Positions 1,321-30,350 of a stretch of 30,350 nucleotides of DNA are shown in pieces. Position 1 is the first letter of the stretch. Each line of letters opens with the position of its first letter. The stretch is from assembly GCA_020697375.1 (NCBI GenBank), contig JAJFBJ010000050.1, positions 1 through 30,350 of the forward strand. The letters run 5' to 3'. Position numbers and translations under genes: made by a program. The notes under the pieces are model-generated. The model saw nothing but the letters and a program-made list of their open reading frames with translations. It did not search any database and was not told where the DNA came from. The DNA is from Nitrospira sp. GTDB lineage: Bacteria; Nitrospirota; Nitrospiria; Nitrospirales; Nitrospiraceae.

Positions 1321-1327
1321 GACCCCC

Positions 1328-2512: not shown

Positions 2513-2523
2513 TTAATTCGTAG

Positions 2524-3816: not shown

Positions 3817-3890
3817 AAAAGCCGACCAATAGCATTACCGCCACTCCACCCAAAGCCCTAGCTCCCCTCGACCTCGTTCAGAAATTGTTC

Positions 3891-6427: not shown

Positions 6428-6545
6428 GTCTGCACGTCTTCCTTTGGGTCACTCGTCCGTTCCGCAATTGAACAACAACACCATCAATACCTCATCATAA
6501 CGCAGTGGCCGCCCAGCAGTTAAAATGGGTTGTACTTCACCTGCA

Positions 6546-6573
6546 CATATAGCCTCGACTGAGCAACCTTCAA
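6546..6573 (-). promoter_or_regulatory. Candidate sigma-70-type promoter upstream of the GT9 gene
   Basis: On the minus strand TTGAAG (6568-6573) and TATATG (6546-6551) are separated by 16 bases. Each matches four of six consensus positions. The site lies in the 185-bp gap between the zinc-ribbon methyltransferase and the GT9 gene and points towards the latter. It was found by eye; such matches occur by chance. Confidence 0.22.
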
Positions 6574-6612
6574 CATCGATTTATCACCTGAAACAGATCC
6601 ACTGGCTCATGC

Positions 6613-8350: not shown

Positions 8351-8633
8351 ATCGTCAACTTCACACGTACTGTCTGACTACAAGGGCACTCGCAGCCCAT
8401 CGTACCATGCTGAAACGCTCCATACCCTCTGAACCTCTCGATAATCCCGCACAAGACTGACATGATGTTCCCTGTTCTCAAAGCATGCGGTAACTCTGGA
8501 AGCTGAAGCCGTGATCGCTCCGTAAGACCGAACTCCGATGGGCTGTAGCATGCCAAACCAATGCAGGCGGCCGCTTCGAGCATCCGTTCAGCCTTCAGCG
8601 CCTAACCTGCCCAAGCGAATTCGACCAAGCAGG

Positions 8634-9863: not shown

Positions 9864-9905
9864 GGACGCAATTACAGCGTCACGGTAATGCCCTCAAGCC
9901 ACAAT

Positions 9906-10952: not shown

Positions 10953-10956
10953 GATT

Positions 10957-12003: not shown

Positions 12004-12075
12004 CGCCTACTCCAATGTGTTCACCGGCGCGCCCCAATAGTTTGACTTGATCTCCGCATGGCCTGGCCGGTCCCA

Positions 12076-13674: not shown

Positions 13675-13675
13675 A

Positions 13676-14824: not shown

Positions 14825-14854
14825 AAAAATGAATCCTACAGCGGAGTCACAAGA

Positions 14855-15598
14855 ATGCTGAGATTCGTGAGGAAGTTGTTATCAAATACTTACGGGCCGG
14901 CACCCGATCCCACCACAATCGCTCACGCGGATGCTTTGAAATGGTCCAGGCACCGCCACGTGCAGTTTAACGAAGCCGTCAATGCGGTTCTTCCATATCT
15001 CAACAACAATGCTGCAATCTTCGATATCGGTGCAAACATTGGCTACTTCAGCCTCCTCCTTATGGAACGACTCCACTTTTCAGGGAAGGCTTACCTCTTC
15101 GAACCAGTACCCAACTTAGCGAGACTGTGCGAAGAAACGTTTCACAACACCGCTTATGACGTCACGATAAATCAGTTCGCTCTGAGCGATCAGGACACGG
15201 ACTTGAAAATGCTCGTCGACATGGACGGAAATATTGGCTGGAATACACTCATTGTAGAGAAAAAAACTGCGAACATGAAGCCAATCACGATTCATGCCCG
15301 GAGATTCGATTCACTGGCAATTCCACATCGACCGGATTTCATCAAAATTGATGTTGAGGGCAGCGAATACAAGGTACTCAGCGGAATGTTAACAAGCCTG
15401 AGCGCTTGGCGCCCGTTACCAGTCATTCTGTGCGAAGTAGGGTGGGGTAAGTCTCACCCCCATTGGCAAGAAGAGCTTGAGGTCTTCAACAATCTCGCAA
15501 AACTAGGCTATATGACATTTGACATTAACAAGCGTCCGATCAATCTTCTAGACCTAACTCATACATCCGACGTGTTGTTCTTGCCGTCATCTGCATAG
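14855..15598 (+). CDS. FkbM-family SAM-dependent methyltransferase
   Basis: Probable O-methyltransferase of a sugar hydroxyl, 247 residues. The SAM-binding loop is AAIFDIGANIGYFSLLL (53-69), with the acidic ribose-binding YLFEPVPNLARL after it. PDFIKIDVEGSEYKVLSGM (160-178) is the diagnostic FkbM motif. The frame is open from 14672, but that part overlaps the divergent GT4 gene and has no motifs. The ATG at 14855 has a GGAG box about 10 bases upstream and is chosen. It is the only convincing plus-strand gene in the window and looks more AT-rich than the rfb genes, both consistent with separate acquisition. It converges with the amidotransferase gene, the ends only 11 bases apart. It may cap or decorate the glycan. 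Confidence 0.88.
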   Translation: MLRFVRKLLSNTYGPAPDPTTIAHADALKWSRHRHVQFNEAVNAVLPYLNNNAAIFDIGANIGYFSLLLMERLHFSGKAYLFEPVPNLARLCEETFHNTAYDVTINQFALSDQDTDLKMLVDMDGNIGWNTLIVEKKTANMKPITIHARRFDSLAIPHRPDFIKIDVEGSEYKVLSGMLTSLSAWRPLPVILCEVGWGKSHPHWQEELEVFNNLAKLGYMTFDINKRPINLLDLTHTSDVLFLPSSA

Positions 15599-15609
15599 GT
15601 TTCTGTACT

Positions 15610-17469
15610 CTAATGGCACCTATCGCGCCTGGATTGATCCATCCACTCATCAAGAACAAGCAACAACCAAAGAGGTCCCACGAAGCGGTTGTCGATCAAT
15701 GCTTGAATCCCTTTCGTGTCGAAATATGTCCGTAGACCCGAATTCTGCGAGAACAGCCTCTCTTTTACATCACCCTTGATTCCCGATTCGTTAAAGAACC
15801 ATGTCTCCAAGGGAATCGAAAATCCTTGCTTGCGCCTATAGAGAAACGCCTTCGGATAATATTTTTCCAGCATCTTCTTGAGCAGCAACTTTCCCTGCCA
15901 CCGTCCGTCCGACCCCAAGGCCATGTTCAAAGACGCGGGAATAGTAGCGGCAAATTCCACAACTCTCTTGTCGACGAACGGCGTCCGTACTTCGAGACTG
16001 TTGGCCATACTCGCAATGTCTACCTTCGAGAGAATGTCGTAGGGCAAGTAGGTCTTCAGATCCATGTATTGGACTTTCTGGATGTCGGAACAGTGGCTCG
16101 TCCGGGAATACATCGTTTCAAAAACGTCCAAAGGACATGACAGCACATGCTTGAATTCCTCTCGCCATAACCCTGCTCTCAAGTCGCGAGACATATAATT
16201 CACCAAGCTGAGCCAATTGTCGACATGGTCTCGACGGCGTGATATCGGGGGATACCGGCGAGGAAGAATGCGACTGGCAAGCGGGTAGAGCCTCCTTTTC
16301 CAGGATGGCAGCCGTGATTGCGGATACAAATGTCCCATCCACTCAAGGTAGGATTGATAGCCGGCGAACAACTCATCACTCCCGTCACCCGATAGCACCA
16401 TCGGAACGTGTTCCCTGGCAAGCTTGGAAACGTAAAACATAGGGATAATGGAGCTATCACCAAACGGTTCTCCGGAATGGCGAACGAGTTCCGGAAGAAC
16501 GCCGAGAGCATCCGGTTCGAGGATTTCAGTGTGATGCTCCGTACCCCATCGCTCTGCAACCAATGAGGCATAACGCGATTCGTCGAATTCCGACGCCCGA
16601 AACCCGATACTAAAGGTCTTAATCGGACGATCGAGAAGCTGTGCCATATAGGTCACGACGGCACTGGAATCCACTCCTCCGGATAAGAAGGCCCCGAATG
16701 GCACGTCCGATACTAGATGCGCTTTGACAGACTCTGAAATGACATGCTCAAGCTCAGCCAGCCAGTCCTCCTCTGATCGTTGTGAACCGGGGCGAAACTG
16801 GATGTCCCAGTATTCATGAGGCCCATCAAGCGTTCCGTCGAACGTAATCGACATCCGATGCGCAGGCGGCAATTTGCGGATTTGCCGGAAGATGGAGCGA
16901 GGCGCGGGGATGTACTGCAGCCACAGATATTGATCGAGAGCCTGAAGATCAATGTCCAGAGGGATGTCTGGAAATGCTTTCAGCGCCTGTATTTCGGACC
17001 CGAATACAAAACATTCGTGATTCCAAAAATAGAAGAGCGGCTTGATTCCAAACTGATCACGCGCAAGAAAGACTCGGCGCCTTGCAAAATCAACGATGGC
17101 GAAGGCAAACATGCCTCGCAGGTGATTGACGCAATTGTCTCCCCATTTCTCGTAGGCATGAATAATTACTTCAGTATCGGAATGCGTCCGAAAAACATGG
17201 TTATCCGATTCGAGGGTTTGCCTGAGCTCACGAAAGTTGTAGATTTCGCCGTTAAAGGTGATCCATATCGATCCATCGTCATTGGACATGGGTTGTTTGC
17301 CCATCTCGGGATCGATGATAGACAACCGGCGATGACCGATGACGACGTTTTCCGCTGCCAGCAATCCATCACCGTCAGGACCTCGGTGAGCCAAGCGAGT
17401 AACCGCCTCGGAGATCTCCGATTTCTCAATGGGGCCGCGAAACCGGAGAAGACCGACTATTCCACACAT
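15610..17469 (-). CDS. asnB: Glutamine-hydrolysing asparagine synthetase-like amidotransferase
   Basis: Class II glutamine amidotransferase plus ATP-pyrophosphatase synthetase domain, 619 residues, normal for AsnB. Cys2 in MCGIVGLL is the glutaminase nucleophile. HRRLSI (46-51), FNGEIYN (72-78) and HSDTEVI (96-102) line the glutamine pocket. The PP-loop LSGGVDSS is at 262-269, and SGDGSDELFAGY and KVDIASMANSLEVRTPF complete the synthetase site. The complete active-site set implies an active enzyme. In polysaccharide loci such proteins are thought to amidate a sugar carboxylate (uronamide) or another carboxylated precursor; whether this one makes free asparagine instead cannot be told. The gene converges with the FkbM gene and lies 34 bases downstream of a methyltransferase. 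Confidence 0.93.
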   Translation of the reverse strand: MCGIVGLLRFRGPIEKSEISEAVTRLAHRGPDGDGLLAAENVVIGHRRLSIIDPEMGKQPMSNDDGSIWITFNGEIYNFRELRQTLESDNHVFRTHSDTEVIIHAYEKWGDNCVNHLRGMFAFAIVDFARRRVFLARDQFGIKPLFYFWNHECFVFGSEIQALKAFPDIPLDIDLQALDQYLWLQYIPAPRSIFRQIRKLPPAHRMSITFDGTLDGPHEYWDIQFRPGSQRSEEDWLAELEHVISESVKAHLVSDVPFGAFLSGGVDSSAVVTYMAQLLDRPIKTFSIGFRASEFDESRYASLVAERWGTEHHTEILEPDALGVLPELVRHSGEPFGDSSIIPMFYVSKLAREHVPMVLSGDGSDELFAGYQSYLEWMGHLYPQSRLPSWKRRLYPLASRILPRRYPPISRRRDHVDNWLSLVNYMSRDLRAGLWREEFKHVLSCPLDVFETMYSRTSHCSDIQKVQYMDLKTYLPYDILSKVDIASMANSLEVRTPFVDKRVVEFAATIPASLNMALGSDGRWQGKLLLKKMLEKYYPKAFLYRRKQGFSIPLETWFFNESGIKGDVKERLFSQNSGLRTYFDTKGIQALIDNRFVGPLWLLLVLDEWMDQSRRDRCH

Positions 17470-17503
17470 ATATTAGCTATCACTTCAGCGACAGATCTCA
17501 GCG

Positions 17504-18262
17504 CTATCTGGTTGCAACGCAAACAAGGTGAGGAAGCTTTGGCTCTTCACCTCGGACGCGCGGTTCGCTCATCTGTCTGATGCGACTAGCAAGAGCAGAC
17601 TTGACGGCGCGGATTCGATCCCAAGGCGATGGACAAAGAGGAGCGGCCTTATACCCTGAGAAATTGGTTGCAAATGCATCCACCACACTAAGGTCATGTG
17701 CCTGGATAAAGGAAGTGAGCGACTCTTTGGACCAGCTTCTCACATGCTGCCAGCGATGAAATACGACGTCACTCTCCGGGCAATAGACATATGACTTGGT
17801 CAGATCTTCCTCATTTGGTGTTGTGAAAATTGCCACCCCCCCAGTTCCCAGCAATGCCTTAATGGTATCGATACATTTACCCAACATCTTGTCATCGAGG
17901 TGTTCGATTATTTCAACCACCATGATGAGGTCAAATACCTTGCGATCTCGAATTAGAATTTCCGACTCAAATGCCCCCTTGAAGTTGGGATTCGCTCCAA
18001 ATTTACGTCTCACTATTTCTAATGACTTTGGAGAAAACTCAACAGCGGACACCTCCAGTTTCTGGTTAAGTAGATGTGGAATGAGGAATCCAGGACCACA
18101 TCCATAATCCAGCGCTGTTTTTGCACCGGCATAGAATCGCACGAGCGAGGCTACAACGGCGTCACCAACCTGGCGGGTAAAATAGTTTTCCTCGAATTGA
18201 GACTCATAATCCCAAAAGCGCGCAATTTTTTCGTTTGTCCATTCCATTAACTTGTATTGCAT
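17504..18262 (-). CDS. Class I SAM-dependent methyltransferase
   Basis: 252-residue methyltransferase. TALDYGCGPGFLIPHLL (49-65) is the SAM-binding motif I, VSAVEFSPKSLEIVR the acidic loop, and FDLIMVVEIIEHLDD the motif-II strand with the EHL signature. AIFTTPNEEDLTKSYVYCPE is typical of UbiE/UbiG-like Methyltransf_11/23 proteins in glycan clusters. It is cytosolic, with no membrane segment. The ATG at 18262 lies 12 bases after the CgeB-like gene, with an AAGGAT box before it. It is the second of three genes (with the CgeB-like protein and the amidotransferase) that look co-transcribed. The methyl acceptor is not known; a sugar hydroxyl or carboxyl is the likeliest. Confidence 0.87.
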   Translation of the reverse strand: MQYKLMEWTNEKIARFWDYESQFEENYFTRQVGDAVVASLVRFYAGAKTALDYGCGPGFLIPHLLNQKLEVSAVEFSPKSLEIVRRKFGANPNFKGAFESEILIRDRKVFDLIMVVEIIEHLDDKMLGKCIDTIKALLGTGGVAIFTTPNEEDLTKSYVYCPESDVVFHRWQHVRSWSKESLTSFIQAHDLSVVDAFATNFSGYKAAPLCPSPWDRIRAVKSALASRIRQMSEPRVRGEEPKLPHLVCVATR

Positions 18263-18274
18263 GGCACGAGATCC

Positions 18275-19390
18275 TTATCTCTTTAAAACTCTTCGCGCAA
18301 AATTTCGGAGCAGGGAAGAGTGCTTTTTTGCCAAATCCATCACCTGCTTGCCAAAAGTGCGTCGGCGATGCTTGCGGACATAGAGGGGAGCGCGCCCAGC
18401 CGACAAGGCTTTCGCCGGCCGGATTTCGCGCACATATTTTTCCACCAGGTTAAATACCGCTATTTCGTTGTAGTCTCTCACTGCTCTCGCCCACCCTGCC
18501 GCCGCGATCTGCCTTCTTTCCTCGTCGTGCGCTAAATAGTAACGGCAGAGATCAATCGCCTCCTCGACGGTATCGAATCCAATGACTTCCTTATTGAGAT
18601 CGAACAGCTTGCTCAGATGTGATCGGTTGTCACAGATCTGCAGCACCCCGTTTGCGGGGAGAATATAGGTTCGAAAGTTCACAGGGCCAGTCGAGTTGTG
18701 AAAGTTCGGCCCAATTTTGGTCCGCTGTAAAAGAGGAACCCTTTCAGCTTCGTCAAGGTAACCGCGTGGCCAACCCTTTCCGTAATAGCACCCGTCGGGA
18801 AAGGCATTCGCGAAATGGTCGACGCGTTGCCGGCGCCATCCCATCTCCCGCTCACACAACAATGCAATGTCTACATCACGCGATCCAATCAGTATATGCT
18901 CAGCGGTTAAAAATGGGTCATAATCGTCAACCCGAAACCCAAGTGGCCAAAACCGCACCTGCTTGACGCCCCATTTTCGATAGGACTCTACCTCAGCAAT
19001 ATTCCCGACCATCGCCAGATCATATGCAGCCGCTACTGGCTTGGATAGGAGATTGGATGATTCTGGATCATCGAAACAGCCGTATACATTGAAGGTGGGT
19101 AACTGAGCAACGAAATCCGGATGAAGATTTATTCCGTTCCAGTTGACAAAAATTTCGTACTCCTCTGAGACCTTGGCCAATTGCTCGTACATACTGAGGA
19201 GCTTTCGGTCTCCGCGCTGCCAGTCTCTTTCAAGCTGCGGCCAGGTAAGCGCCGGTCCGGGAGGATCAATCGTTAACGGAAACCCGTGAACGTCTATACC
19301 CGCCGCCCTCAGTCGGGCCAGCCAGGCATCAACCCACCCCCTGATATCTACAGGCGATCGGTAGTAGCTATACCCAAGCAGAATCTTCAC
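18275..19390 (-). CDS. CgeB-like glycosyltransferase (Glyco_trans_1_2 type)
   Basis: 371-residue GT-B-like protein. The N-terminus MKILLGYSYYRSPVDIRGW opens a Rossmann-like domain. FVNWNGINLHPDF and NVYGCFDDPESSN mark the middle. The C-terminal half has NSTGPVNFRTYILPANG followed by VLQICDNRSHLSKLF and FDTVEEAIDLCRYYL, the donor-binding region of CgeB/DUF3880-type glycosyltransferases. The final 40 residues are strongly basic (Arg/Lys-rich), which may help membrane binding. The ATG at 19390 lies 13 bases after the methyltransferase gene upstream, with a purine-rich AAGAGAA before it. The name CgeB comes from Bacillus spore coat work, but members in Gram-negatives occur in polysaccharide clusters. 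Substrate unknown. Confidence 0.83.
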   Translation of the reverse strand: MKILLGYSYYRSPVDIRGWVDAWLARLRAAGIDVHGFPLTIDPPGPALTWPQLERDWQRGDRKLLSMYEQLAKVSEEYEIFVNWNGINLHPDFVAQLPTFNVYGCFDDPESSNLLSKPVAAAYDLAMVGNIAEVESYRKWGVKQVRFWPLGFRVDDYDPFLTAEHILIGSRDVDIALLCEREMGWRRQRVDHFANAFPDGCYYGKGWPRGYLDEAERVPLLQRTKIGPNFHNSTGPVNFRTYILPANGVLQICDNRSHLSKLFDLNKEVIGFDTVEEAIDLCRYYLAHDEERRQIAAAGWARAVRDYNEIAVFNLVEKYVREIRPAKALSAGRAPLYVRKHRRRTFGKQVMDLAKKHSSLLRNFARRVLKR

Positions 19391-19403
19391 ATTTCTCTTT
19401 TGG

Positions 19404-20141
19404 CTATTTGATAACTCTATGAATGCCGACCCACGAATCTCGGATATGAAATATGCGTCCGCTCAAAAGACCTTCTGCGTAGAGCTTTTCAACTCCAAGA
19501 CACACCTCTTTAATCCAGGGATATTTGGGGGCCAGTTCAAGGTTGAAATCGTGCCAAAGGATAAATGATCCTGAATTCATATGCTCAAGAACTTTCCGGG
19601 AATCGTTGTAAACAAAGTCCATGTCATGGCATCCGTCAATGAACGCGACGTCAATCATTCCAATATTCGGCTCCCAAGTTGCGGTATTGGCGTAGATCTG
19701 CGTGATGTTCCCCAGTCCGCGCTCGCGATACGCGACACCGATCTTTTCGCGCTCCAATGCGATCGTTGTTAGCTGCCCGCCCTCTCCGGACACGATCTCT
19801 TCGGGGGGAATATTGACCGTATAGATCTTAGCCTCCGGAGCATTCGCCGCCATAAGAACCGTCCCCATGCCATTTGAAGTGCCAATCTCTACCGCTAGCC
19901 TTGGTTCCATATTGCGCATCACTGTCGCGAGGCTTTCAGCATCCCTTATCCGACGCTCGTTGACATCTTCCACGTACTGAAAGTCGCGAATGTCTGGGCG
20001 ATCAAGTATAGCTTCATGCTGCCAAGCAAATACCTTTCTTAATTCGTCGACGTTATTGATTTCAATAATCGCCTGCCCAAGATGACTGAATTCTTGCCTT
20101 GTCAGATAGTTCCGGATTCTGGACTTCAAACAATTGAACAT
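19404..20141 (-). CDS. Class I SAM-dependent methyltransferase (Methyltransf_24 type)
   Basis: 245-residue methyltransferase. LAVEIGTSNGMGTVLMA (82-98) is motif I. The acidic-strand position is IYTVNIPPEE. VAFIDGCHDMDFVYND (165-180) is the hallmark IDGxH metal/SAM strand of Methyltransf_24 and related O-methyltransferases. ILWHDFN follows, as in the family. It sits six bases downstream of the Wzt ATPase gene, so it is very probably in the same operon as the exporter. In ABC-dependent systems the terminal sugar can be methylated before Wzt recognises it. This gene, with the neighbouring methyltransferases, is a candidate for that capping role, though the sequence alone does not show it. Confidence 0.85.
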   Translation of the reverse strand: MFNCLKSRIRNYLTRQEFSHLGQAIIEINNVDELRKVFAWQHEAILDRPDIRDFQYVEDVNERRIRDAESLATVMRNMEPRLAVEIGTSNGMGTVLMAANAPEAKIYTVNIPPEEIVSGEGGQLTTIALEREKIGVAYRERGLGNITQIYANTATWEPNIGMIDVAFIDGCHDMDFVYNDSRKVLEHMNSGSFILWHDFNLELAPKYPWIKEVCLGVEKLYAEGLLSGRIFHIRDSWVGIHRVIK

Positions 20142-20147
20142 ATTGGC

Positions 20148-21440
20148 TCAGGCCGGCTCGGCTAGACGAAGCGTTGTCCAACGAATGAATGGGGCTAACT
20201 TCCCCCGTATGGGCTCACTGAGGTATGCACGGTTCGCTTTTCCGGTACGTTGTACATCCAATGAATATGTGATGCCATCAGGGAAAAATGACCGCTCGTT
20301 GAAAATCGTTGCGAAAACCCTGAGCTTATAATTCGTTGGAGCCAGCAAGTCTCCCGGAATAGTTCCTTTGGCTATGTAAAGTCCCGGCTGTACCGTAGGA
20401 ATCCCATCACTGTCCTCATCGTTGAAACTCCGAAAAAGCAACATATCCTGATCGTCCAACAAATCAAAATAGACTCTGAGACCGACCGCCTTCTCATAAA
20501 CGCGATAACGGATTTCAATTTCCAATACGCTGCCATTCTCCACGCTTGCATGCACGGGTTGTCCACGCTGCAACAGCCTAATTCCCTCCAACTTGAACGT
20601 CGGATCCGGTGGCAAATCGCGGATCATTTGGTCGATGCTGTCCAGGCTTGCCATACTCATTCCCTCCTGAAGGTACTGAGTTATCGCCTGTTCTTCTGAT
20701 CCATCGATGACAACTTGTCCGGCCTTCAGAAGGATTCCTCTTCGGCAGAGTTGGCGCACAGCCTGCATATTGTGACTCACAAAGAGTATCGTGCGACCCT
20801 TTTTTCCCACTTCCTCCATCTTGCCAAGGCATTTCTTCTGAAACTGCGCATCGCCCACAGCCAGCACTTCATCGACGACCAATATTTCCGGCTCAAGATG
20901 TGCCGCGACGGCAAAAGCGAGCCGCATGTACATGCCGCTGGAATAGTGCTTGACGGGTGTATCCAGAAATTTTTCGACTTCCGCAAAGGCCACAATTTCG
21001 TCGAATTTCCTTCTTATCTCGGTCTTCCTCATGCCGAGAATAGCACCGTTAAGAAATATATTTTCTCTCCCCGTTAGCTCGGGATTGAATCCTGTTCCCA
21101 CCTCGAGCAAGCTCGCGACACGCCCTCTGATTCTCACCCTGCCGGTTGTCGGTTCCGTGATGCGAGACAGGATTTTGAGCAGAGTCGATTTACCCGCGCC
21201 ATTCCGTCCGATGATGCCAACTCGTTCGCCCTGACGGATATTGAAATCGACATCTTTCAATGCCCAAAATTCCTCGTGCGTGGGATGGTCTTTCCAGGCC
21301 GTGAGCGGATGAGCAACTCTTTGCATCAGGGATCTCAAACCACTGCTCACAACGTCTCGTACCGTCTCGTGGCGCGGCAGATTTTGGTGTCGGATGATAT
21401 ATTTCTTCGACAGACTCTCGACGGTGACGGCGGTAGACAT
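20148..21440 (-). CDS. wzt: Polysaccharide ABC exporter ATP-binding protein with C-terminal carbohydrate-binding domain
   Basis: ATPase subunit of a Wzm/Wzt polysaccharide exporter, 430 residues. Walker A is GRNGAGKST (78-86), the signature motif is YSSGMYMRLAFA (166-177), Walker B is ILVVDEVLAVGD (186-197) and the switch His is in VSHNMQ (221-226). LLEVGTGFNPELTGREN is typical of the Wzt/TagH subfamily. About 150 residues follow the ATPase core (from about 275). They contain short beta-strand-like segments such as LEIEIRYRVY, consistent with a Wzt C-terminal jelly-roll domain that binds the non-reducing end of the finished glycan. It is seven bases downstream of the permease gene. This extension argues for a terminally modified polymer as cargo. 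Confidence 0.93.
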   Translation of the reverse strand: MSTAVTVESLSKKYIIRHQNLPRHETVRDVVSSGLRSLMQRVAHPLTAWKDHPTHEEFWALKDVDFNIRQGERVGIIGRNGAGKSTLLKILSRITEPTTGRVRIRGRVASLLEVGTGFNPELTGRENIFLNGAILGMRKTEIRRKFDEIVAFAEVEKFLDTPVKHYSSGMYMRLAFAVAAHLEPEILVVDEVLAVGDAQFQKKCLGKMEEVGKKGRTILFVSHNMQAVRQLCRRGILLKAGQVVIDGSEEQAITQYLQEGMSMASLDSIDQMIRDLPPDPTFKLEGIRLLQRGQPVHASVENGSVLEIEIRYRVYEKAVGLRVYFDLLDDQDMLLFRSFNDEDSDGIPTVQPGLYIAKGTIPGDLLAPTNYKLRVFATIFNERSFFPDGITYSLDVQRTGKANRAYLSEPIRGKLAPFIRWTTLRLAEPA

Positions 21441-21447
21441 TCCGACC

Positions 21448-22272
21448 TCAAATCACATCGGCAAAGGTTTTTTCGGTTTTGCGAAAATACCAGACGCCGG
21501 TCACCAGGCAGAACAGAACGACCAGGATCGACAGCACTAAGCCGGGCCAATAGAATTCCCCCTTGCCGCCCCAAATGGCCCACCGGAAACCGTCAATTAC
21601 CCCAACCATGGGATTCAACGAATACAGGAAGCGCCACCGCTCTGGCACGATCGCGCTGCTGAAACCGACGGGGGAAACATAGAGGCCAAGCTGAACCACA
21701 AACGGAATGAGGTGGCGAAAATCACGATACCTGACATTGAGCGCCGCCACCCACAGCCCTGCCCCCAGTGCTGCAGAGAAAGCGATCAAGATGAAGCACG
21801 GCAATACCGCAATGCGCCAGTCCGGAACGATGCCATACCACAGCATCAATACGCCGAGAATAACGCCGGATATCGAAAAGTCTATGAGACTCACGATGAC
21901 CGCGCTCGTCGGAATGATCAGCCGCGGAAAATATACCTTCGAGATTAACCCGGAATTACCCACCAGGCTATTACCTGCGTCGCTGAATGCGCCTGCGAAA
22001 AACTGCCACGGCAGCAATGCCGTGAATACCATCACGGAATAGGGCACGTTTTCAGACGGCAAGTTGGCAAGGTTACCAAACAGCACGGTAAAGACGATCA
22101 TTGTAATCAATGGACGCACCAACGCCCACGCGACGCCGATAACCGTCTGCCTGTAACGAACCAAAATGTCACGCCAGGCGAGGAAATAGAACAACTCCCG
22201 ATAGCGCCAAAGGTCCCTCCAATAATGACGTTCCGTTCGCCCCGCCTCAAATTCGAGTATTTCTATATCCAC
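21448..22272 (-). CDS. wzm: Polysaccharide ABC exporter permease
   Basis: Inner-membrane permease of the ABC-2 type, about 274 residues, the normal size for Wzm. YRELFYFLAWRDILVRYRQT is the conserved N-terminal amphipathic gate region. At least six hydrophobic segments follow, including IGVAWALVRPLITMIVFTVL, a segment near ISGVILGVLMLWYGIV, and a C-terminal helix before WYFRKTEKTFADVI. YVSPVGFSSAIVPE and YSLNPMVGVIDGFRWA are family hallmarks. The frame can start with TTG at 22275 or the next codon, GTG at 22272. The GTG is chosen, with AGGGA eight bases upstream. Together with wzt it moves the lipid-linked glycan to the periplasmic face. Confidence 0.92.
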   Translation of the reverse strand: MDIEILEFEAGRTERHYWRDLWRYRELFYFLAWRDILVRYRQTVIGVAWALVRPLITMIVFTVLFGNLANLPSENVPYSVMVFTALLPWQFFAGAFSDAGNSLVGNSGLISKVYFPRLIIPTSAVIVSLIDFSISGVILGVLMLWYGIVPDWRIAVLPCFILIAFSAALGAGLWVAALNVRYRDFRHLIPFVVQLGLYVSPVGFSSAIVPERWRFLYSLNPMVGVIDGFRWAIWGGKGEFYWPGLVLSILVVLFCLVTGVWYFRKTEKTFADVI

Positions 22273-22298
22273 CAAATCTGTCCCTATGCGCGCCGTCT

Positions 22299-23121
22299 CT
22301 ACTCTACCGAAACGCCGCCGGAAGGCGCTCCAAGCCGGCCATGCGATAGAAAATCACGATAGGTCAGCCCGAGCCCATGTTTCAGGTCGGTCCTGGCTTT
22401 CCATCCGAGGCCGTGCAGGCGCGAGACGTCAAGAAGCTTTCGCGGCGTTCCGTCTGGTTTACTTGGATCAAATACAAGAGCCCCTTCGAACCCCACAGCT
22501 TCTGCTACGGCATGAGCAAGTTCGGCGATGGTCAGATCCGTTCCCACCCCAACATTGATGAGATCTCCAGTCTCCCCCACACTTGCTTTTTCCATCAGGA
22601 ATACACACGCATCGGCCAGATCGTCGCTATAGAGGAACTCCCGGCGCGGGCTCCCGCTTCCCCACACCATCATCTCCCTGTCACCGCGTTCTTTGGCCTC
22701 ATGCGCCTTACGGATCAGTGCTGGAATGACATGTGAGTTTTTCGGATGATAATTGTCTCCCAGACCGTAGAGATTCGTCGGCATCGCTGCAATGAAGTCG
22801 CACCCGTACTGACGGCGATATCACTCCATGGACATAGGCCTGATGGATGACGTTGGTCTGAATCGCCAGATTGTCATAGATAAACTCGGCCGGAAATGTA
22901 CTGTTCGCCAGAATGCCACCCACCTTCGCTGCGGCAAGAAAAACGTATTCCGGCTTCGTCTCTGCAAACAACGTGGCCACGCTGGTATTGTCACGCAGGT
23001 CTAGTTCCCTGCTGGTCCGGAGGATCAGATTGTCATACCCTCGGGCGGTGAGAGCCCGCACGATTGCCGATCCGACCATCCCTCGATGCCCGGCAACATA
23101 AATGCGCGCCCGTTTGTCCAT
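22299..23121 (-). pseudogene. fcl: GDP-L-fucose synthase, broken by an internal deletion with frameshift
   Basis: Two frames together make a GDP-L-fucose synthase (NADPH-dependent epimerase/reductase acting on GDP-4-keto-6-deoxymannose) with its middle missing. The first frame, from ATG at 23121, carries the NADP-binding IYVAGHRGMVGSAI and YVFLAAAKVGGI, and is intact to HQAYVHGV (residue 100). One base later the sequence resumes in another frame as YRRQYGCDFIAAMPTNLYG and continues to the normal C-terminus with KPDGTPRKLLDV. Against E. coli WcaG, about 50 codons are absent, those for residues near 100-149. They include catalytic Ser107, Tyr136 and Lys140. Total coding length is about 273 codons instead of about 321. 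The gene starts three bases after gmd, the standard pairing. No enzyme activity is expected. An assembly error is the alternative. Confidence 0.88.
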
Positions 23122-23124
23122 GAT

Positions 23125-24132
23125 CTACACCTTTTTCCAGCCGGTGCCTTGGAGTTTGAGCTGTTCGGCTTCCACATCCGCTTCGACCATCATGATCGCC
23201 AATCGATGGAAATCCACATTTGGCTTCCATCCGAGCTGCCTCGCGGCCTTCGCCGGGTCACCGATCAGGAGATCCACCTCCGTCGGACGGTAATAGCGAG
23301 GATCGATTTTTACATGTCGCTGCCAGTCAAGCCCCAGATGGCCGAACGCGACATCGAGAAATTCCCGCACCGTGTGCGTCTCGCCGGTTGCCACGACATA
23401 ATCGTCGGGCTGATCCTGCTGCAGCATGAGCCACATGGCTTGGACATAGTCCCCGGCATAGCCCCAATCCCGCTTCGCGTCCAGATTGCCCAGGAACAAG
23501 TCCTGTTGCAATCCCAATTTGATCCGCGCCGCGGCCTTGGTAATCTTTCGCGTAACGAACGTTTCGCCCCGGCGCGGCGACTCATGGTTGAACAGAATAC
23601 CGTTGCAAGCGAACAGACCGTAGGCCTCCCGATAATTGACCGTAATCCAATGGGCATACACCTTCGCCGCGCCGTAGGGACTACGCGGATAGAAGGGTGT
23701 GGTTTCCCGCTGCGGCACTTCCTGCACCTTGCCGAACATCTCACTCGACGAGGCCTGATAAAATTTAGGCCGCAGGCCCGATTCACGGATGGCCTCGAGC
23801 AGTCGCACCGTACCTAAGCCGGTAATTTCCGCCGTGTATTCCGGAATATCAAAACTCACCCGGACATGGCTCTGCGCGCCGAGATTATAGATTTCGTCAG
23901 GCCGAACCGTGCGTAAAATCTTATTCAAGGAACTCGCGTCATTGAGGTCACCGTACACGAGATGCACCTTGGCCTCGACAATATGCGGATCCTGATAAAT
24001 GCCGTCGATTCTCGCTGTGTTAAACGAGCTGGACCGACGAATGATCCCGTAGACATCGTATCCCTTCGCCAGCAGGAATTCCGCAAGGTAGGACCCATCC
24101 TGCCCCGTGATGCCGGTAATCAACGCCTTCAC
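23125..24132 (-). CDS. gmd: GDP-mannose 4,6-dehydratase
   Basis: Converts GDP-D-mannose to GDP-4-keto-6-deoxy-D-mannose, the precursor of GDP-fucose, GDP-rhamnose, GDP-colitose and GDP-perosamine. 335 residues, full length. The NADP-binding loop is [17 protein letters not shown] (3-19), with [12 protein letters not shown] next. The SDR active site is intact: SSSEMFG (128-134) and Tyr153/Lys157 in [40 protein letters not shown] and [14 protein letters not shown] complete the Gmd signature. The start is a GTG at 24132. A GGAG sits 11 bases upstream. Its usual partner directly downstream is broken, so the product must be used by an enzyme elsewhere or accumulates unused. Confidence 0.95.
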
Positions 24133-24319
24133 TTTCGATAGACTCCGATTTGTCTACTCGATCTTGGGAACCGACGCATCACCAGCATCCCCCACGTCTC
24201 GACAAGACATCTTCACTTTTGATGGATCTATGGTGTCCTGTCAAGCCGCGGTTTCCAACAGCGGGGGAAACACGTTTGCAATCGACTCTCCCTGCTACAT
24301 ATAACCTTCTGCTCCGGCG

Positions 24320-25657
24320 TTATCCCTGCGGGTCGGTTACGTTCTTGTCTCTCCCCATTCGCTGCCAGGCGGGGCTGGTCACAGAGACTCCGATGGCCGC
24401 CAAAATCCAGAATACATGAGCCAGGCTCCCCATGAACATGTAGTCAAAGAGATTGCGCACCCCAAAGCCGACTACCGCCAGGCCTATGCCTAGGGCCATC
24501 ACCATGAATGGATCTTCCCGGTCGACTACTCGTGCCCGTAACATGAGCCGCCCGAGAAGCGCGAAGAAAATCCAGCCGAAGCACAGCAGCGCGGGAAGGC
24601 CGCTTCCCAAGGCCACCATGAGGAAAGCGTTATGCATGGCCGGAATGATACGTTCCCGCTCAGGAAGCTCTGCCTGCTCTTCCAGCGAATACTCGGGAAA
24701 TTTCTTAATGAACGAGTTGTTCCCGTAGCCGATACCCACCAGGGGATGCGTGGCCACCTCTCGCAATCCGATGCCCCAGACCTTCAGCCTCGTATCCACC
24801 GTTTTGGCCGCGACCGTGTCGGTTTGAATTCCGATCTGCGACGCGACAACCAACCCTCCAGTCACCAGAACCATACATCCCAGCACGGTCAAGGCCAAAC
24901 GCCGGCCGCCGATAATCAATGCGAAGGTGACTCCTTGCGCCGCGTGACCCAGCCACCCGCCGCGCGTGTATGAAAACAGCTGTGCTGCAAATGCCAGGAC
25001 AAGAGCCACCACCCCAGCCAGTCGAGCCCAGGCCATGCGGCTCATGATAACCAGACTGCCGATGACAGGAACGGTCATCACCATATAAGTGCTTAGCCAG
25101 TTATAGTCCGAGCCAAACGCCAAAGCTCGAACAAAGCGATCCCTCCAAGTGCCTCCCCGATCCACGAAATCGATCAGCGCGTAGCCAGCCAGAATGATCC
25201 CCCCCATGGCGAGCGACCGAAGGACCTGCTCGGGCAAAGTCTTTTCGCGGCGGCGATGCAGCACCAGCAGCGACCAGTAGAACACGTCGGCTTGCGCCAC
25301 GAACTTTTTCCACTCGGAGAAACTATAGGCAGGATCGACTGCGAAGGGCACCGTGCAGAGCACCCAGGTAATGAAGAGCCACAGGGGACGATCTAGCGGG
25401 CTTTTAATCCAGGGAGTCTCCTTTTCCAGCCAGCACATGCCGACGCACAGCACCGACAAGATAATGACAGCGTGTTCTTGAAATCGGAACAGCATGGGAA
25501 AGAAACTCGAGCAGGCGACGGCGAGCAGAACGAACTTCTGAAGTTCCCAAAACAGGGCCTGACCGGGAATGCGACGCCCTCGTTCGATGCCGGGCCTCAG
25601 AACGGATTCGGATGGTGACGTGTTCATGGACGCAGGATCGTTTGTGTCACCGGGCAT
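24320..25657 (-). CDS. O-antigen ligase/polymerase family membrane protein
   Basis: 445-residue integral membrane protein with about ten to twelve hydrophobic helices, for example around residues 43-58, 62-78, 93-108, 190-206 and 210-228. The Wzy_C-type region includes LFSYTRGGWLGHA (228-240), HPLVGIGYGNN (304-314) and MHNAFLMVALGSG (341-353) in a periplasmic loop context. Arg232 and His342 match the conserved charged residues of the WaaL/Wzy family. In an ABC-exporter locus the ligase role (joining the glycan to lipid A-core or another acceptor) is more likely than a Wzy polymerase, but the family does not separate these by sequence alone. Start: ATG at 25657; an ATG at 25627 is an alternative, and neither has a good ribosome-binding site. 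Confidence 0.85.
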   Translation of the reverse strand: MPGDTNDPASMNTSPSESVLRPGIERGRRIPGQALFWELQKFVLLAVACSSFFPMLFRFQEHAVIILSVLCVGMCWLEKETPWIKSPLDRPLWLFITWVLCTVPFAVDPAYSFSEWKKFVAQADVFYWSLLVLHRRREKTLPEQVLRSLAMGGIILAGYALIDFVDRGGTWRDRFVRALAFGSDYNWLSTYMVMTVPVIGSLVIMSRMAWARLAGVVALVLAFAAQLFSYTRGGWLGHAAQGVTFALIIGGRRLALTVLGCMVLVTGGLVVASQIGIQTDTVAAKTVDTRLKVWGIGLREVATHPLVGIGYGNNSFIKKFPEYSLEEQAELPERERIIPAMHNAFLMVALGSGLPALLCFGWIFFALLGRLMLRARVVDREDPFMVMALGIGLAVVGFGVRNLFDYMFMGSLAHVFWILAAIGVSVTSPAWQRMGRDKNVTDPQG

Positions 25658-26043
25658 AGGGTGATCTCATGCCGCAGAAGCCTTCATCAGCGCACAGAGA
25701 CCTGCTGAGGTAATCGTAATAGCTGATCCATAATCGCCTCCTACCCGCTTACAGGCCTGTGCATCCCATGGCTTGCCTGCGGCCAGCCACATTTCAGATT
25801 CGCACTTTATGGTGGATGATCGCCAAGAGGGCTTGCGGGGTCGATAGTGAACGCTCTGATGCACGCGTCTAAGGTCGTTGTGCGCAGGATGTAACGACAG
25901 TCCTGGATCAGCGGAATCGCAGTATAGAGGAATCAGGATGGTTGCACAAGAATGGCTTCCATGTGGGAACATCTTCAGGGCAGAAGCCGGATGCGGAAGC
26001 CCAGGTGCTCGACTGTGCCGAGAGTGGTGCCGGCACAACGTGC
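25658..26043. other. 386-bp leader/intergenic region between rfbD and the ligase-family gene
   Basis: No recognisable gene spans this stretch. A minus-strand open frame crosses it but begins inside rfbD in the wrong frame and has no family motif. It probably contains the promoter or 5' leader of the ligase-family gene. The only distinct item is a 14-codon open frame with a strong GGAGG box (25687-25731), listed separately. Confidence 0.5.
25687..25731 (-). CDS. Possible 14-residue leader peptide upstream of the ligase-family gene
   Basis: ATG at 25731 is preceded by GGAGG (25737-25741) with five bases between, one of the best ribosome-binding sites in the window. It encodes MDQLLRLPQQVSVR and then TGA. 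That stop overlaps an ATG of a six-codon frame that ends 8 bases before the ligase-family ATG at 25657. Such an arrangement could couple translation to the downstream gene, whose own start lacks a good site. No homology is known to me; chance is a real alternative. Confidence 0.25.
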   Translation of the reverse strand: MDQLLRLPQQVSVR

Positions 26044-26910
26044 TTAGGAAACAAAGGAAGTCGCCAGATTCTGCGGCGCACGGGGTGGAGCATTCACGAA
26101 ACGCCGCAACCCATCCTGCCAGGCAGGCATACGGAACCCCAGCTGATGGAGACGGTCTCCCGACAGTACCGAATAGGCCGGCCGCTTGGCTGGTCTCGGC
26201 ATATCTGCCGTCGTGATCGCCTCGACGGGAACCCGAAGCCCCGACAACCTGACGATTTCGGAGGCAAAAGCATGCCAGGTACAATCGCCTTCGTTGGTCA
26301 CATGCAGAATGCCCTGCGCCGGATGCGCAAGAACATTGCCGATCATGCGAGCAAGGTCTTCGGCGAAGGTCGGACAGCCACGTTGATCCGCCACAACTTT
26401 CAAGGAGGGCCGTTCGGCCGCAAGCTGCAGGATGGTCTTGACGAAATTCCTGCCGTGATGCCCATACAGCCACGCCGTGCGAATCACCAACGTATTCTCA
26501 CAGCCGGCAAGGGCCCGCAGCTCTCCCGCGCGCTTGGACTCGCCATAGGCACTGACAGGATTCGTCGGATCGGACTCCACATAGGGACGAGCTCCGCGGC
26601 CATCGAATACATAGTCGGTCGAAAGATAGATCAGCCTGGCCCCAGTTTTGGCGGCCGCGCGGGCCACGCGTTCGGTTCCCTCGGCATTCACGGCCATGGC
26701 CAGACGGGGGTTCCCTTCTGCCCCATCCACGTCCGTATAGGCGCCCGCGTGAATGACGACCTCGGGCGCCGCCTCGACAACGGCCCGTTCGCAGTCTGGA
26801 TCTGTGAGATCGAAGATCGGGAGATCCAGCGCCGTCAGCTGATGCCCTTGCAAGACTTGCCGGAGGTCGGTCCCCAATTGGCCCTGGGCGCCGGTGATTA
26901 CGATCCGCAC
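26044..26910 (-). CDS. rfbD: dTDP-4-dehydrorhamnose reductase
   Basis: Last step of dTDP-L-rhamnose synthesis: NADPH reduction of dTDP-4-dehydro-L-rhamnose. 288 residues, normal length. The cofactor loop is VITGAQGQLGTDL (4-16), followed by AGAYTDVDGAEGNP (55-68). LSTDYVFDG (96-104) and Tyr122/Lys126 in AYGESK form the SDR active site. IRTAWLYGHHGRNFVKT and VVADQRGCPTFAEDLA complete the RmlD signature. The start is a GTG at 26910 with GAAGGGG five bases upstream, overlapping the rfbB end by 13 bases. Substrate supply needs an RfbC epimerase, which is not in this window. Confidence 0.94.
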   Translation of the reverse strand: MRIVITGAQGQLGTDLRQVLQGHQLTALDLPIFDLTDPDCERAVVEAAPEVVIHAGAYTDVDGAEGNPRLAMAVNAEGTERVARAAAKTGARLIYLSTDYVFDGRGARPYVESDPTNPVSAYGESKRAGELRALAGCENTLVIRTAWLYGHHGRNFVKTILQLAAERPSLKVVADQRGCPTFAEDLARMIGNVLAHPAQGILHVTNEGDCTWHAFASEIVRLSGLRVPVEAITTADMPRPAKRPAYSVLSGDRLHQLGFRMPAWQDGLRRFVNAPPRAPQNLATSFVS

Positions 26911-27890
26911 GCCTGCCCCTTCTGCAACCGGTTGGCATATTGCTGCTGGTAATATTCCCTAAACTCCCCGGACTTGATCTTTCTCCACCAATGCTCATGA
27001 CTGCGATACCAGTCGACGGTCTGTTTCAATCCCTCTTCGAACGGCACCGTCGGCTTCCACCCCAGGGCGTGGAGCCGGCTGCAATCGATCGACCGGATCA
27101 GACTGCGCGATCGGCCCAACGCCGTCACGATCTGTTCGGCCACCGTCACGTTCTCGCGCTCATTCCCTCCGCCGAGGTTGTAAATGGTTCCCGGTTCGCC
27201 GTGATCAAATACGTGCTCGATGCCGGCCGCATGGTCATAGACCGAGAGCCAATCCCGGCAATTCTTGCCGTCGCCATAGAGCGGGAGCGGCTCACCATCG
27301 ATCGCATTCGTCACGAACAAGGGAATGAATTTCTCTGGATACTGATTCGGCCCGTAGGTATTGCTGCCGCGGGTAACCAGGACGGGAAAGCGATAGGTCG
27401 TCCAATAACTCATGACCAACAGTTCGCCGCCCGCCTTGCTCGCCGAGTAGGGACTGCGCGGCTCCAGCCGGTCTTCTTCCTTGGAACTCCCCTGCTCGAC
27501 ACTGCCATAGACCTCATCGGTGCTCACTTGAAGGAAACGCCCGATGCCCGCCTGGCGCGCCTCCTCCAGCAAGATGCCGGTCCCCACCACATCAGTGCGG
27601 GCAAAGGCTCCGGGATCGAGAATCGAACGGTCGACATGCGTTTCTGCCGCGCAATTGATGATGCCCTCGATGCGATGCTCCCGCAGAATCGCCTGCACCA
27701 CCGCCTGATCGCAGATATCGCCCTGCACGAAGGTATAGTGCGGATGGCCCGCCAGGTCCGTGAGATTCTCAAGATTGCCGGAATACTTGAGCGCGTCGAG
27801 ATTGACCACCGAATGGCGTCCGCCCTGAATCAAACGACGCACCACATGCGAACCGATAAAACCCGCGCCACCCGTGACAAGAATACGCAT
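26898..27890 (-). CDS. rfbB: dTDP-glucose 4,6-dehydratase
   Basis: Converts dTDP-D-glucose to dTDP-4-dehydro-6-deoxy-D-glucose using bound NAD. 330 residues. The NAD-binding loop is LVTGGAGFIGSHVV (4-17). AAETHVDRSI (81-90), STDEVYGS (123-130) with the Asp-Glu pair, and Tyr148/Lys152 in YSASK are the catalytic elements. SNTYGPNQYPEKFIPLF and GDGKNCRDWLSVYDHA are RmlB hallmarks. The ATG at 27890 directly follows the rfbA stop with no spacer, so the two are certainly co-transcribed and probably coupled. The product can feed rhamnose as well as other 6-deoxy sugars. Confidence 0.96.
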   Translation of the reverse strand: MRILVTGGAGFIGSHVVRRLIQGGRHSVVNLDALKYSGNLENLTDLAGHPHYTFVQGDICDQAVVQAILREHRIEGIINCAAETHVDRSILDPGAFARTDVVGTGILLEEARQAGIGRFLQVSTDEVYGSVEQGSSKEEDRLEPRSPYSASKAGGELLVMSYWTTYRFPVLVTRGSNTYGPNQYPEKFIPLFVTNAIDGEPLPLYGDGKNCRDWLSVYDHAAGIEHVFDHGEPGTIYNLGGGNERENVTVAEQIVTALGRSRSLIRSIDCSRLHALGWKPTVPFEEGLKQTVDWYRSHEHWWRKIKSGEFREYYQQQYANRLQKGQACGS

Positions 27891-28625
27891 CTAAAACTCC
27901 ATCCTATTCGCCCCGGTCTGCGCCACCAGTTGGTTGGCTGCGAGTAACGATTCGATTGTGCCGGCATCTGTCCACCAGCCATCCAGCACCGTCCAGGTCA
28001 GCGCGCCGGATGCGATATAGGCGTTGTTGACATCAGTAATTTCCAGTTCACCTCGCTGAGAAGGCCGTAGCGTTTTGGCGATCTCGAAGACGCGAGCGTC
28101 GTAGAAATAGATCCCTGTCACCGCATATGACGAGCGTGGATGCGCCGGTTTCTCCTCGATGCTCAACACCCGATCCCCCTCGAGATGCGGCACACCGAAG
28201 CGCTGAGGATCTTTCACTTCTTTCAGCAGAATCTTCGCGCCGGTCTTCTGCCGGCGGAAGGCCTCCGCCGCCGTGGCGATATTGCCTTGAATCAGGTTGT
28301 CTCCCAACACGACGCAAATCGGTCCATCGTCGGCAAAGTGTTCCGCCAGCCGCAAAGCATCGGCGATCCCGCCCTCCCCCTGCTGATAGGTATAACTGAG
28401 ATGCTTGAGCCCAAAGTCCCTGCCGTTCCCCAACAATTTCAAAAAATCGCCGGCGCTGTTCCCCCCCGTCACCAGCATGACTTCCGTAATACCGGCATTC
28501 ACCAGCGTTTGAATCGGATAGTAGATCATCGGCTTGTCGTACACCGGCAGGAGATGCTTGTTCGTGACTTTGGTGAGAGGCAGCAATCGAGACCCGAGAC
28601 CCCCGGCGAGTACGACACCTTTCAT
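27891..28625 (-). CDS. rfbA: Glucose-1-phosphate thymidylyltransferase, short form
   Basis: Forms dTDP-glucose from dTTP and glucose-1-phosphate. At 244 residues it is the short type lacking the C-terminal extension of enterobacterial RmlA (about 290). VVLAGGLGSRLLPLT (4-18) is the nucleotide-binding loop, KHLLPVYDKPMIYYPI follows, VVLGDN (105-110) holds the metal-binding Asp, and IEEKP (156-160) the sugar-binding site. The ATG at 28625 has GGGGGTGAGGG immediately upstream. It is the first gene of the rfbA-rfbB-rfbD unit. The 148-bp gap before it should contain the promoter, but I could not identify clear -35/-10 boxes. Specificity for dTTP is inferred from neighbours. Confidence 0.93.
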   Translation of the reverse strand: MKGVVLAGGLGSRLLPLTKVTNKHLLPVYDKPMIYYPIQTLVNAGITEVMLVTGGNSAGDFLKLLGNGRDFGLKHLSYTYQQGEGGIADALRLAEHFADDGPICVVLGDNLIQGNIATAAEAFRRQKTGAKILLKEVKDPQRFGVPHLEGDRVLSIEEKPAHPRSSYAVTGIYFYDARVFEIAKTLRPSQRGELEITDVNNAYIASGALTWTVLDGWWTDAGTIESLLAANQLVAQTGANRMEF

Positions 28626-28773
28626 CCCTCACCCCCGCAGCAACAGAATGTTTGGCTCACACGGACCATGATGGCTTGGCGCATGAGATTCAGGACCGGT
28701 CATCAACTACCGGATCTTAGCGTTTCGCCGGGGCTGCAGACCAGAAAATTCGATCATCACGTCCATCGGTTGC

Positions 28774-29976
28774 TCATTCACCCGTCAGCGCGTCGACGAC
28801 ATGCTCGGCAAAGGGGAGCGATGAGGTGAAAGCCGGCGAGACGGCATTCAACACGTGGGTGGAACGCGGCCCCGGCGCAATGACAAAATCACTCATGAGT
28901 TCGGCCGTTCTCACGTCGATCAATTGCGCCCTGATGCCCGGTTCTTTGCCCGGCAGCAAATCGGCCTTTTCAAACCCCACCCCCAAATTCTCCGCCTCAC
29001 GAAAAAAGCCTGCTTGCGTCAGTTTGACCATTTCCGTCCATGCGATCGAGCGAAAATGGTCACGGTTGCGACCGAAGAGCCGCATCAGGTAGATGAGCAT
29101 CGTCAGACTATCCCCGAACGTCGCCCCGCTCATGCCCCGATACTGCTCGCGCCCAAGCAAAGGGAGGGCCGAAGGCCCGATCGTGACGTCGCCTTCAGGC
29201 CGTCGCGTAAAGTGCACGCCCAAAAAGGGATTCCGCAAGTCCGGCACGGGATAGATGTTGCCTCGGACCTGGAGCTTGGACTCAGGACGCAAGCGAAAAA
29301 ACTGTCCGCGAAAGGGCAAAATTTTGAAGTGCCGCCCAACCCCATAGGCATGGGCAATACGATCTGCATACAGCCCGCCGCAATTCACGAAATGCCCATA
29401 CGAGAAAGCGCCGCAGGTGGTGCGCGCCCCCGTCTCGCCCTCACGCCCCTGCCAGGCACAGTCGTATCGAAACTGCACTCCTTCGCGCTCGGCATCCGCC
29501 ACCATCGCAGCCATGACTCGCTGGGGATTCACCACCGCCGTGTCCCTGACATACAGCGCCTGCTGCACCGTCCTGGCACAGGGTTCGACCTCCTTTAATG
29601 CCTTCGGATCGAGCAGATTCACATGCACTCCATTGGCCTGGGCTCGCGCGTGCAACTCGCGTAACGCGGGCAACTCGGCTTCCGTCCGCGCCACAATCAC
29701 CTTGCCGTAGTCGTTGAGCGGAATAGCCTTTTCCCGGCAATAGGCCCGCATCCGCCGGTTCCCCTCGATACACAATCGAGCCTTGAGCGTGCCGGCCTTG
29801 TAATAGACGCCCGCGTGCAGCACGCCGCTGTTACGACCGCTGGCATGCAAACCGGCCGCGACCTCCTTTTCGAGCACGACGACCGTGGCGCGGTGCCGAC
29901 GCCTGAGTTCCCTCGCGATGGCCACACCGATCACTCCAGCCCCGACAATCAGAAAGTCGCAGCTCGTCTCGTTCAT
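28774..29976 (-). CDS. lhgO: FAD-dependent L-2-hydroxyglutarate oxidase/dehydrogenase
   Basis: DAO-family flavoprotein that oxidises L-2-hydroxyglutarate to 2-oxoglutarate. From the ATG at 29976 it has 400 residues, the normal LhgO length. The FAD loop FLIVGAGVIGVAIAREL (8-24) is followed by VVVLEKE. SGRNSGVLHAGVYYKAGT is the strongly diagnostic LhgO stretch. NCGGLYADRIA, ILPFRGQFF and IYPVPDLRNPFLGVHFT follow, and LNAVSPAFTSSLPFAE closes the family pattern. The frame is open up to 30138, but the extra 54 residues are Arg-rich and lie in repeat-like DNA. A GGGGAG box sits four bases before 29976. It is separated from rfbA by 148 bases and has no role in glycan assembly, so it probably marks the right border of the cluster. 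Confidence 0.92.
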   Translation of the reverse strand: MNETSCDFLIVGAGVIGVAIARELRRRHRATVVVLEKEVAAGLHASGRNSGVLHAGVYYKAGTLKARLCIEGNRRMRAYCREKAIPLNDYGKVIVARTEAELPALRELHARAQANGVHVNLLDPKALKEVEPCARTVQQALYVRDTAVVNPQRVMAAMVADAEREGVQFRYDCAWQGREGETGARTTCGAFSYGHFVNCGGLYADRIAHAYGVGRHFKILPFRGQFFRLRPESKLQVRGNIYPVPDLRNPFLGVHFTRRPEGDVTIGPSALPLLGREQYRGMSGATFGDSLTMLIYLMRLFGRNRDHFRSIAWTEMVKLTQAGFFREAENLGVGFEKADLLPGKEPGIRAQLIDVRTAELMSDFVIAPGPRSTHVLNAVSPAFTSSLPFAEHVVDALTGE

Positions 29977-30107
29977 TGATCTCCCCACTTTGTGGATCCT
30001 GCGGAAGACGGCCCATGACAACCGAGCCGCACGACCCTGTCGAATCGCCAGCCTGATGCGTATCCCCCGACGCAGCGGACGCCCGCGCCGGAATCCGTGG
30101 CGGCCTA

Positions 30108-30202
30108 TCAGGCTGCGGAAAAACTCGATTTTGCACAATACCGCCGCGATCAGTCACGTGGCATACTGGTATCAGAATAGCCTGCAGGATGCGCACAAAG
30201 GC
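30108..30202. repeat. Possible dispersed intergenic repeat
   Basis: The left part reads CAGGCTGCGGAAAAACTCG and the right part has CCTGCAGGATGCGCACAAAG. These phrases resemble intergenic repeats I recall from Nitrospira-type genomes, where similar text recurs around GCAGGATGCGCA and AGTTTTTCxGCAGCC. Only one copy is visible here, so repetition cannot be shown from this window. Boundaries are approximate. Confidence 0.3.
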
Positions 30203-30225
30203 GACCTTCTTACCCGCCCGACCCC

Positions 30226-30244
30226 GGCGCGTCAAAGACGCGCC
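30226..30244. repeat. Perfect 8-bp inverted repeat with 3-base loop
   Basis: GGCGCGTC, AAA, GACGCGCC form a perfect GC-rich hairpin. There is no T-run on either side, so a classic intrinsic terminator is not supported. It may be a stem within the neighbouring repeat-like DNA or a Rho-independent-like pause site for a gene beyond the window. Confidence 0.5.
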
Positions 30245-30350
30245 CTGTCCTAGGCAAGGCCGCAGCGAGGTCCGCGACGCGAAGAAGAATGAGCGTCACG
30301 TCTGCGGACGGGCGCGAGCCGGTGAGCGCCCAGTGTCCCAGAGGCGAATC

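Follow-up and report, generated by a model that had tools for sequence, protein, structure and literature searches.

A gap across the catalytic triad of a Nitrospira GDP-L-fucose synthase gene probably reflects a faulty contig join

The GDP-L-fucose synthase gene (fcl) in the window, by which we mean the whole stretch of 30,350 nucleotides that was analysed, lacks 149 nt in its middle and, as printed, reads as broken, without its catalytic triad. It appears that this gap is an error made in joining contigs rather than a real, recent deletion; we regard the former as the probable explanation. Contig ends or reads on both sides of a poorly assembled stretch would have been joined and the stretch itself omitted. 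On this reading, the organism itself would have a normal, unbroken fcl behind gmd, as its relatives do. The discrepancies seen in rmlB, and those between the window and a near-identical genome, G019 (see below), may well have the same cause.

The fcl gene occupies positions 23121..22299 of the minus strand. Its frame is kept up to codon 100 and is resumed in another frame after one base (Table 1). In each of the 120 homologues compared (best 120 of 7998 scored), the two pieces are spaced by exactly 50 residues, which amounts to a net loss of 149 nt, and pairwise DNA alignment with the L001 locus likewise yields 149 nt. The first-pass annotation, which was made from the letters alone, was thus right about the junction and about the loss of some 50 codons. 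It had also reported the loss of the catalytic Ser, Tyr and Lys. We take Ser107, Tyr136 and Lys140 of E. coli GDP-fucose synthetase to be its catalytic residues. HMMER alignment of that enzyme (PDB 1BSV) with P0003, a close intact relative from a Nitrospira MAG (E 1e-112), places them at P0003 positions 108, 137 and 141, all three within the absent stretch 101-150, so that the loss holds for the gene as printed. Nor does the gene encode a full-length Epimerase (extended SDR) domain: Pfam PF01370 matches with profile positions 1-107 in one frame and 168-240 in the other, the middle being absent. The nearest relatives are GDP-L-fucose synthases, the named top homologues being called GDP-L-fucose synthase or synthetase, and an intact gmd adjoins the gene. 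Within the window, no other copy or moved version of the absent segment was found (best E 0.1). Among the matches listed, the 137-aa truncated Fcl protein comes from this one contig alone. The contig is given there with a length of 30350 bases, so the window appears to be a contig in full.

Table 1. Positions of the features discussed, in window coordinates
Feature	Position	Strand	Description	Basis
wzt and wzm	20148..22275	-	ABC-transporter genes, next after fcl	Pfam
fcl piece 2	22299..22820	-	C-terminal part, starts YRRQYGCDFIAAMPTNLYG...; stop at 22299-22301	
fcl 3' part downstream of MPTNLYG	22299..22763	-	fcl lineage different from that of the genus loci	identities and trees
N-terminal ORF (137 aa), tail out of frame	22708..22821	-	frame ends at 22708	ORF translation
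fcl lesion junction	22820..22822	-	single base 22821 against 150 nt (50 codons) in intact homologues	
fcl piece 1	22822..23121	-	codons 1-100, MDKRARIYVAGHRGMVGS...HQAYVHGV; NADP-binding half, Nitrospira-type sequence	translation
gmd	23125..24132	-	GDP-mannose 4,6-dehydratase, intact	Pfam PF16363
rmlB	26898..27890	-	330 aa; second gap of the contig at 27092-27094 (36 nt, frame kept)	
rmlA	27891..28625	-	no gap relative to L001	

In the genus Nitrospira, fcl is otherwise intact. Piece 1 is matched in 27 of 29 genomes (amino acid identity 83-89%), and the gene reads through in one open frame at all 27 loci, the frames of two of them (L094 and L098) extending to the edge of the locus sequence. 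The GSSC motif is present in each, PTNLYG in 26 and PTSLYG in the remaining one. Piece 2 is 93-94% identical to P0003 and P0002, the latter being the best intact relative listed (87% in the N part, 94% in the C part). The annotation had described both flanks as conserved, and this is borne out: piece 1 departs at none of the 47 columns that do not vary among 38 selected relatives, and piece 2 at none of the 57 that do not vary among 16 selected relatives. When all 146 rows of the alignment are used, the corresponding counts are 0 of 21 and 0 of 11. The dN/dS of piece 1 against the 27 loci ranges from 0.02 to 0.13, the median of 336 intact pairs being 0.07. The remnants therefore show no relaxed constraint of the kind expected of a pseudogene made by deletion, although a very young pseudogene would look alike. 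This absence of decay fits either a very young deletion or no deletion at all.

The contig has a second gap, in rmlB, that had escaped the first-pass annotation. Twelve residues, FVQDRPGHDRRY, are absent from the window protein. The gene is matched in 28 of the 29 genus genomes; with G019 set aside, the matched stretch is longer than that of the window by 36 nt in every one of the remaining 27. P0242 is an RmlB encoded on a JGI contig of 9203 bases. It is identical to the window protein at 329 of the 330 shared residues, one residue being the sole difference outside the gap, and it contains FVQDRPGHDRRY; an almost identical rmlB allele without the gap thus exists. The 119 RmlB homologues listed besides the window protein, P0242 among them, are 338-345 aa long, and 115 of these 119 carry the exact motif RPGHDRRY.

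Part of the window is found almost unchanged in G019, a genome of 3.5 Mb, whose contig C225 (3199 bases) matches window positions 26746-30131. Over these 3.2 kb there are three mismatches: those at 27495 and 29989 are isolated, and the third, 27159, lies on the edge of a junction. Larger differences are nevertheless evident. The G019 rmlB departs from the window at 27092, within about 2 nt of the 36-nt gap, and rejoins it near 27160; a stretch of 40 nt from window 27681-27722 is present twice in tandem; and the G019 rmlA lacks the 160 nt corresponding to window 28180-28339. Faulty joins would be expected to leave such a pattern, in which almost no bases are substituted and the gaps differ at a common breakpoint. 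G019 is no direct witness on fcl, since the fcl DNA has no match in it. Near-identical matches to window 10400-26745 were likewise absent among the best 40 of 105 candidates, and none was listed for 88-10400. Positions 1-87 of the window are exactly the last 87 bases of G019 contig C139, an identity that resembles the overlap of neighbouring contigs in an assembly graph. The other end of the window (30104-30350) is a dispersed repeat, about 245 bases long, in which 39 of the 44 listed G019 matches fall. Another G019 sequence, L217 (contig C7, 2895 bases), reads as a run of N.

Frame-changing breaks were also counted in G019 genes unrelated to the cluster. About 0.6 Mb of this genome was compared with samples of two relatives that have chromosome-sized contigs, G026 (800 kb) and G006 (400 kb), genes being admitted from 60% identity, 150 bits and 50% coverage upwards. 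The set excluded contig C225 and the C206/C13 excerpts and included a longer stretch of C206 (L288). Of 55 genes compared with G026, two were broken (net -191 and -1 nt), and of 38 compared with G006 likewise two (-50 and -5 nt), the two sets possibly having genes in common. The control, G006 compared with G026, gave no break in 61. In-frame gaps or inserts of at least 10 residues show no excess (2 of 55, 1 of 38 and 1 of 61 for G019-G026, G019-G006 and G006-G026, respectively). An earlier, smaller version of the comparison had flagged 3 of 19 genes, the 191-nt loss among them. This loss is clean, looks like the fcl lesion and affects a gene far from sugar synthesis, which by its sequence we take to be FAD-dependent-oxidoreductase-like. 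The excess of four breaks against none is small and not convincing on its own, and two of the four involve only 1 and 5 nt. Breaks in unrelated genes nonetheless speak for a technical cause in G019, and the window may share it. Exact tandem duplications of at least 20 nt, which are only suggestive as a signature of assembly, number two in about 220 kb of G019, of which one is the C225 case described above and from which the match in L217 was dropped, and none in 400 kb of G026 or in the window.

Several of these observations favour a misjoin. The contig contains a second gap that is absent from an allele identical at 329 of 330 residues; a near-identical genome differs from the window by its rmlB gap, its rmlA gap and a tandem repeat, and has frame-changing breaks in unrelated genes; both fcl halves are free of decay; and the truncated Fcl is listed from this single contig. 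Other observations count against it. The relatives listed do not include an intact fcl from the strain itself. To join ends that lack a long overlap, a read or a gap-closing step is needed. The other window genes that have relatives among the loci compared show no frame break or clear lesion. The frame-break excess of G019 is small, and this genome possibly stems from another assembly than the window. Finally, the 36 nt are absent from both the window and G019, as they would be if a strain shared a real rmlB deletion. Two further candidates were tried and rejected. Hairpin-prone DNA does not explain the loss, the folding of the L001 equivalents being not unusual (z -1.2 and 0.8). A supposed third lesion of the window concerned wcaJ, where a gap recurs near residue 340; it reflects differing loop lengths in relatives whose identity does not exceed 49%.

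The main alternative, which we consider possible but rather unlikely, assumes that the strain truly and recently lost 149 nt of fcl. This locus would then no longer convert the Gmd product to GDP-L-fucose, with the result that the surface polysaccharide has no fucose or is not made. The clean junction and the conserved flanks are as a recent loss would leave them, and the near-identical G019 yielded no second fcl when all 7 candidates were scored (best match 30% identity, E 2.7e-11). Elsewhere, O-antigen genes are commonly lost (PMC6712391; PMC5589760, on gmd and fcl of Yersinia pestis). Against this stand the disagreement between the window and G019 lesions at near-zero divergence, the breaks of G019 in unrelated genes, the rmlB allele without the second gap, and the intact state of fcl in the 27 genus genomes that have the gene (two frames of the 27 reaching the end of the locus). 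The first-pass annotation had read the gap as an event that looks recent and that could be a strain-level antigen switch. Its description of the gene, with the triad lost between conserved flanks, stands; its interpretation as a real deletion is not supported, given the conflicting gaps of the window and G019, the JGI RmlB that lacks the second gap and the breaks in unrelated G019 genes. Even a real gap would leave the phenotype in doubt. Second fcl matches occur in the genus, so the loss of fucose is not to be concluded without the genome of the strain: a second match of at least 134 bits occurs in 12 of the 27 genomes having the main fcl, the one in G011 containing an internal stop. Three loci hold second gmd-fcl pairs of another type, two in G003 and one in G027 (L143, L144 and L145).

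It is very improbable that in a wild Nitrospira population fcl, rmlB and rmlA have repeatedly suffered recent, independent deletions and duplications with hardly any substitutions, for example as mutations to phage resistance, with phages or grazers repeatedly favouring the loss or change of O-antigen and each assembly catching different alleles: indels almost devoid of substitutions do affect three polysaccharide genes of one cluster, but a single 3.2-kb contig of G019 would have to hold three such lesions, and the clean 191-nt loss falls in a gene of that genome unrelated to the cluster.

Better supported than any account of the gap is the mosaic nature of fcl, whose 5' part is of Nitrospira type and whose 3' part belongs to another lineage. 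Up to MPTNLYG, the window protein shares with L001 88 of the first 100 residues and all 19 residues after the junction, whereas beyond this motif only 74 of 143 (52%) are identical. The same contrast holds against the 27 genus loci (83-89% in the first part, 49-56% in the 3' part). The 3' type of the window is found instead in P0002, P0003 and P0004, with 97, 96 and 82% identity over 135 residues; P0048 was left out of these figures since it lacks the anchor motif. Trees built with 29 of the 120 proteins lead to the same conclusion. For the first part, the window falls in a branch of 39 rows that includes all 27 genus loci (support 99/97), the inner forks being weak. For the 3' part, from which L094 was dropped as too short, a 100/100 branch separates the window from the 26 genus loci. 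The switch point, at about 22763, lies some 57 nt from the lesion, toward the variable cassette. As a guess, strain mixtures that diverge from this point could also have troubled the assembler.

The gene belongs to a surface-polysaccharide cluster on the minus strand, which comprises an FAD-dependent oxidoreductase (presumably LhgO-like), rmlA, rmlB, rmlD, an O-antigen ligase/polymerase, gmd and fcl. Beyond fcl follow wzt and wzm, methyltransferases, asnB and glycosyltransferases. Genes below position 12003 were named by reading the sequence and not by Pfam, and a Pfam search of 7427-8350 gave no match. Among the Pfam-scanned ORFs there is no rmlC, while rmlA, rmlB and rmlD are present (25658-28773). 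The intact Gmd is 94% identical to that of the Nitrospira MAG RBC085, which marks the host as a Nitrospira. At the DNA level, gmd and fcl piece 1 are only 81% identical to RBC085, which is therefore taken as another species. Among the genomes listed, wzm is 69-72% identical to five of the family from outside the genus and about 45-52% identical to those of the genus.

Gmd makes GDP-4-keto-6-deoxymannose, which Fcl uses as substrate to yield GDP-L-fucose. Both pieces of the window gene align with known GDP-L-fucose synthases (GFS/WcaG/Fcl; PDB 1BSV and 1E6U) and gmd lies directly upstream, as expected of such a gene, but unlike these enzymes the printed gene is frameshifted and lacks the segment bearing Ser107, Tyr136 and Lys140. 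PMC5589760 describes a comparable loss of function of the GDP-fucose route within the O-antigen cluster of Yersinia pestis; fcl and gmd are reported there as inactivated in two sequenced strains, and later genomes, by that account, may have functional versions of some genes. In contrast with that case, the present one is a single contig with signs of assembly error. PMC5322557 concerns the gain, not the loss, of gmd and fcl. A single listed paper combines Nitrospira and GDP-L-fucose synthase, and its title points to an unrelated subject. For the mosaic, the closest parallel is provided by recombination junctions in the rml genes of Salmonella, where, as in the window, a shared sugar gene next to the variable block resembles the core at one end and the block at the other (PMC3715488). 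Here, the switch occurs instead inside a Nitrospira fcl, just after MPTNLYG. A mosaic fcl beside a variable polysaccharide cassette is thus a known kind of event.

A clean internal deletion seen in a single metagenomic contig calls for reads or a second assembly before it is given a biological reading. If the gap were real, it would mean that one strain of a nitrifier has lost fucose synthesis, in a manner akin to the known losses of O-antigen genes: Gmd would presumably still make GDP-4-keto-6-deoxymannose, but no GDP-L-fucose would be formed from this locus. The mosaic fcl, for its part, marks a site at which surface-polysaccharide cassettes are exchanged in Nitrospira.
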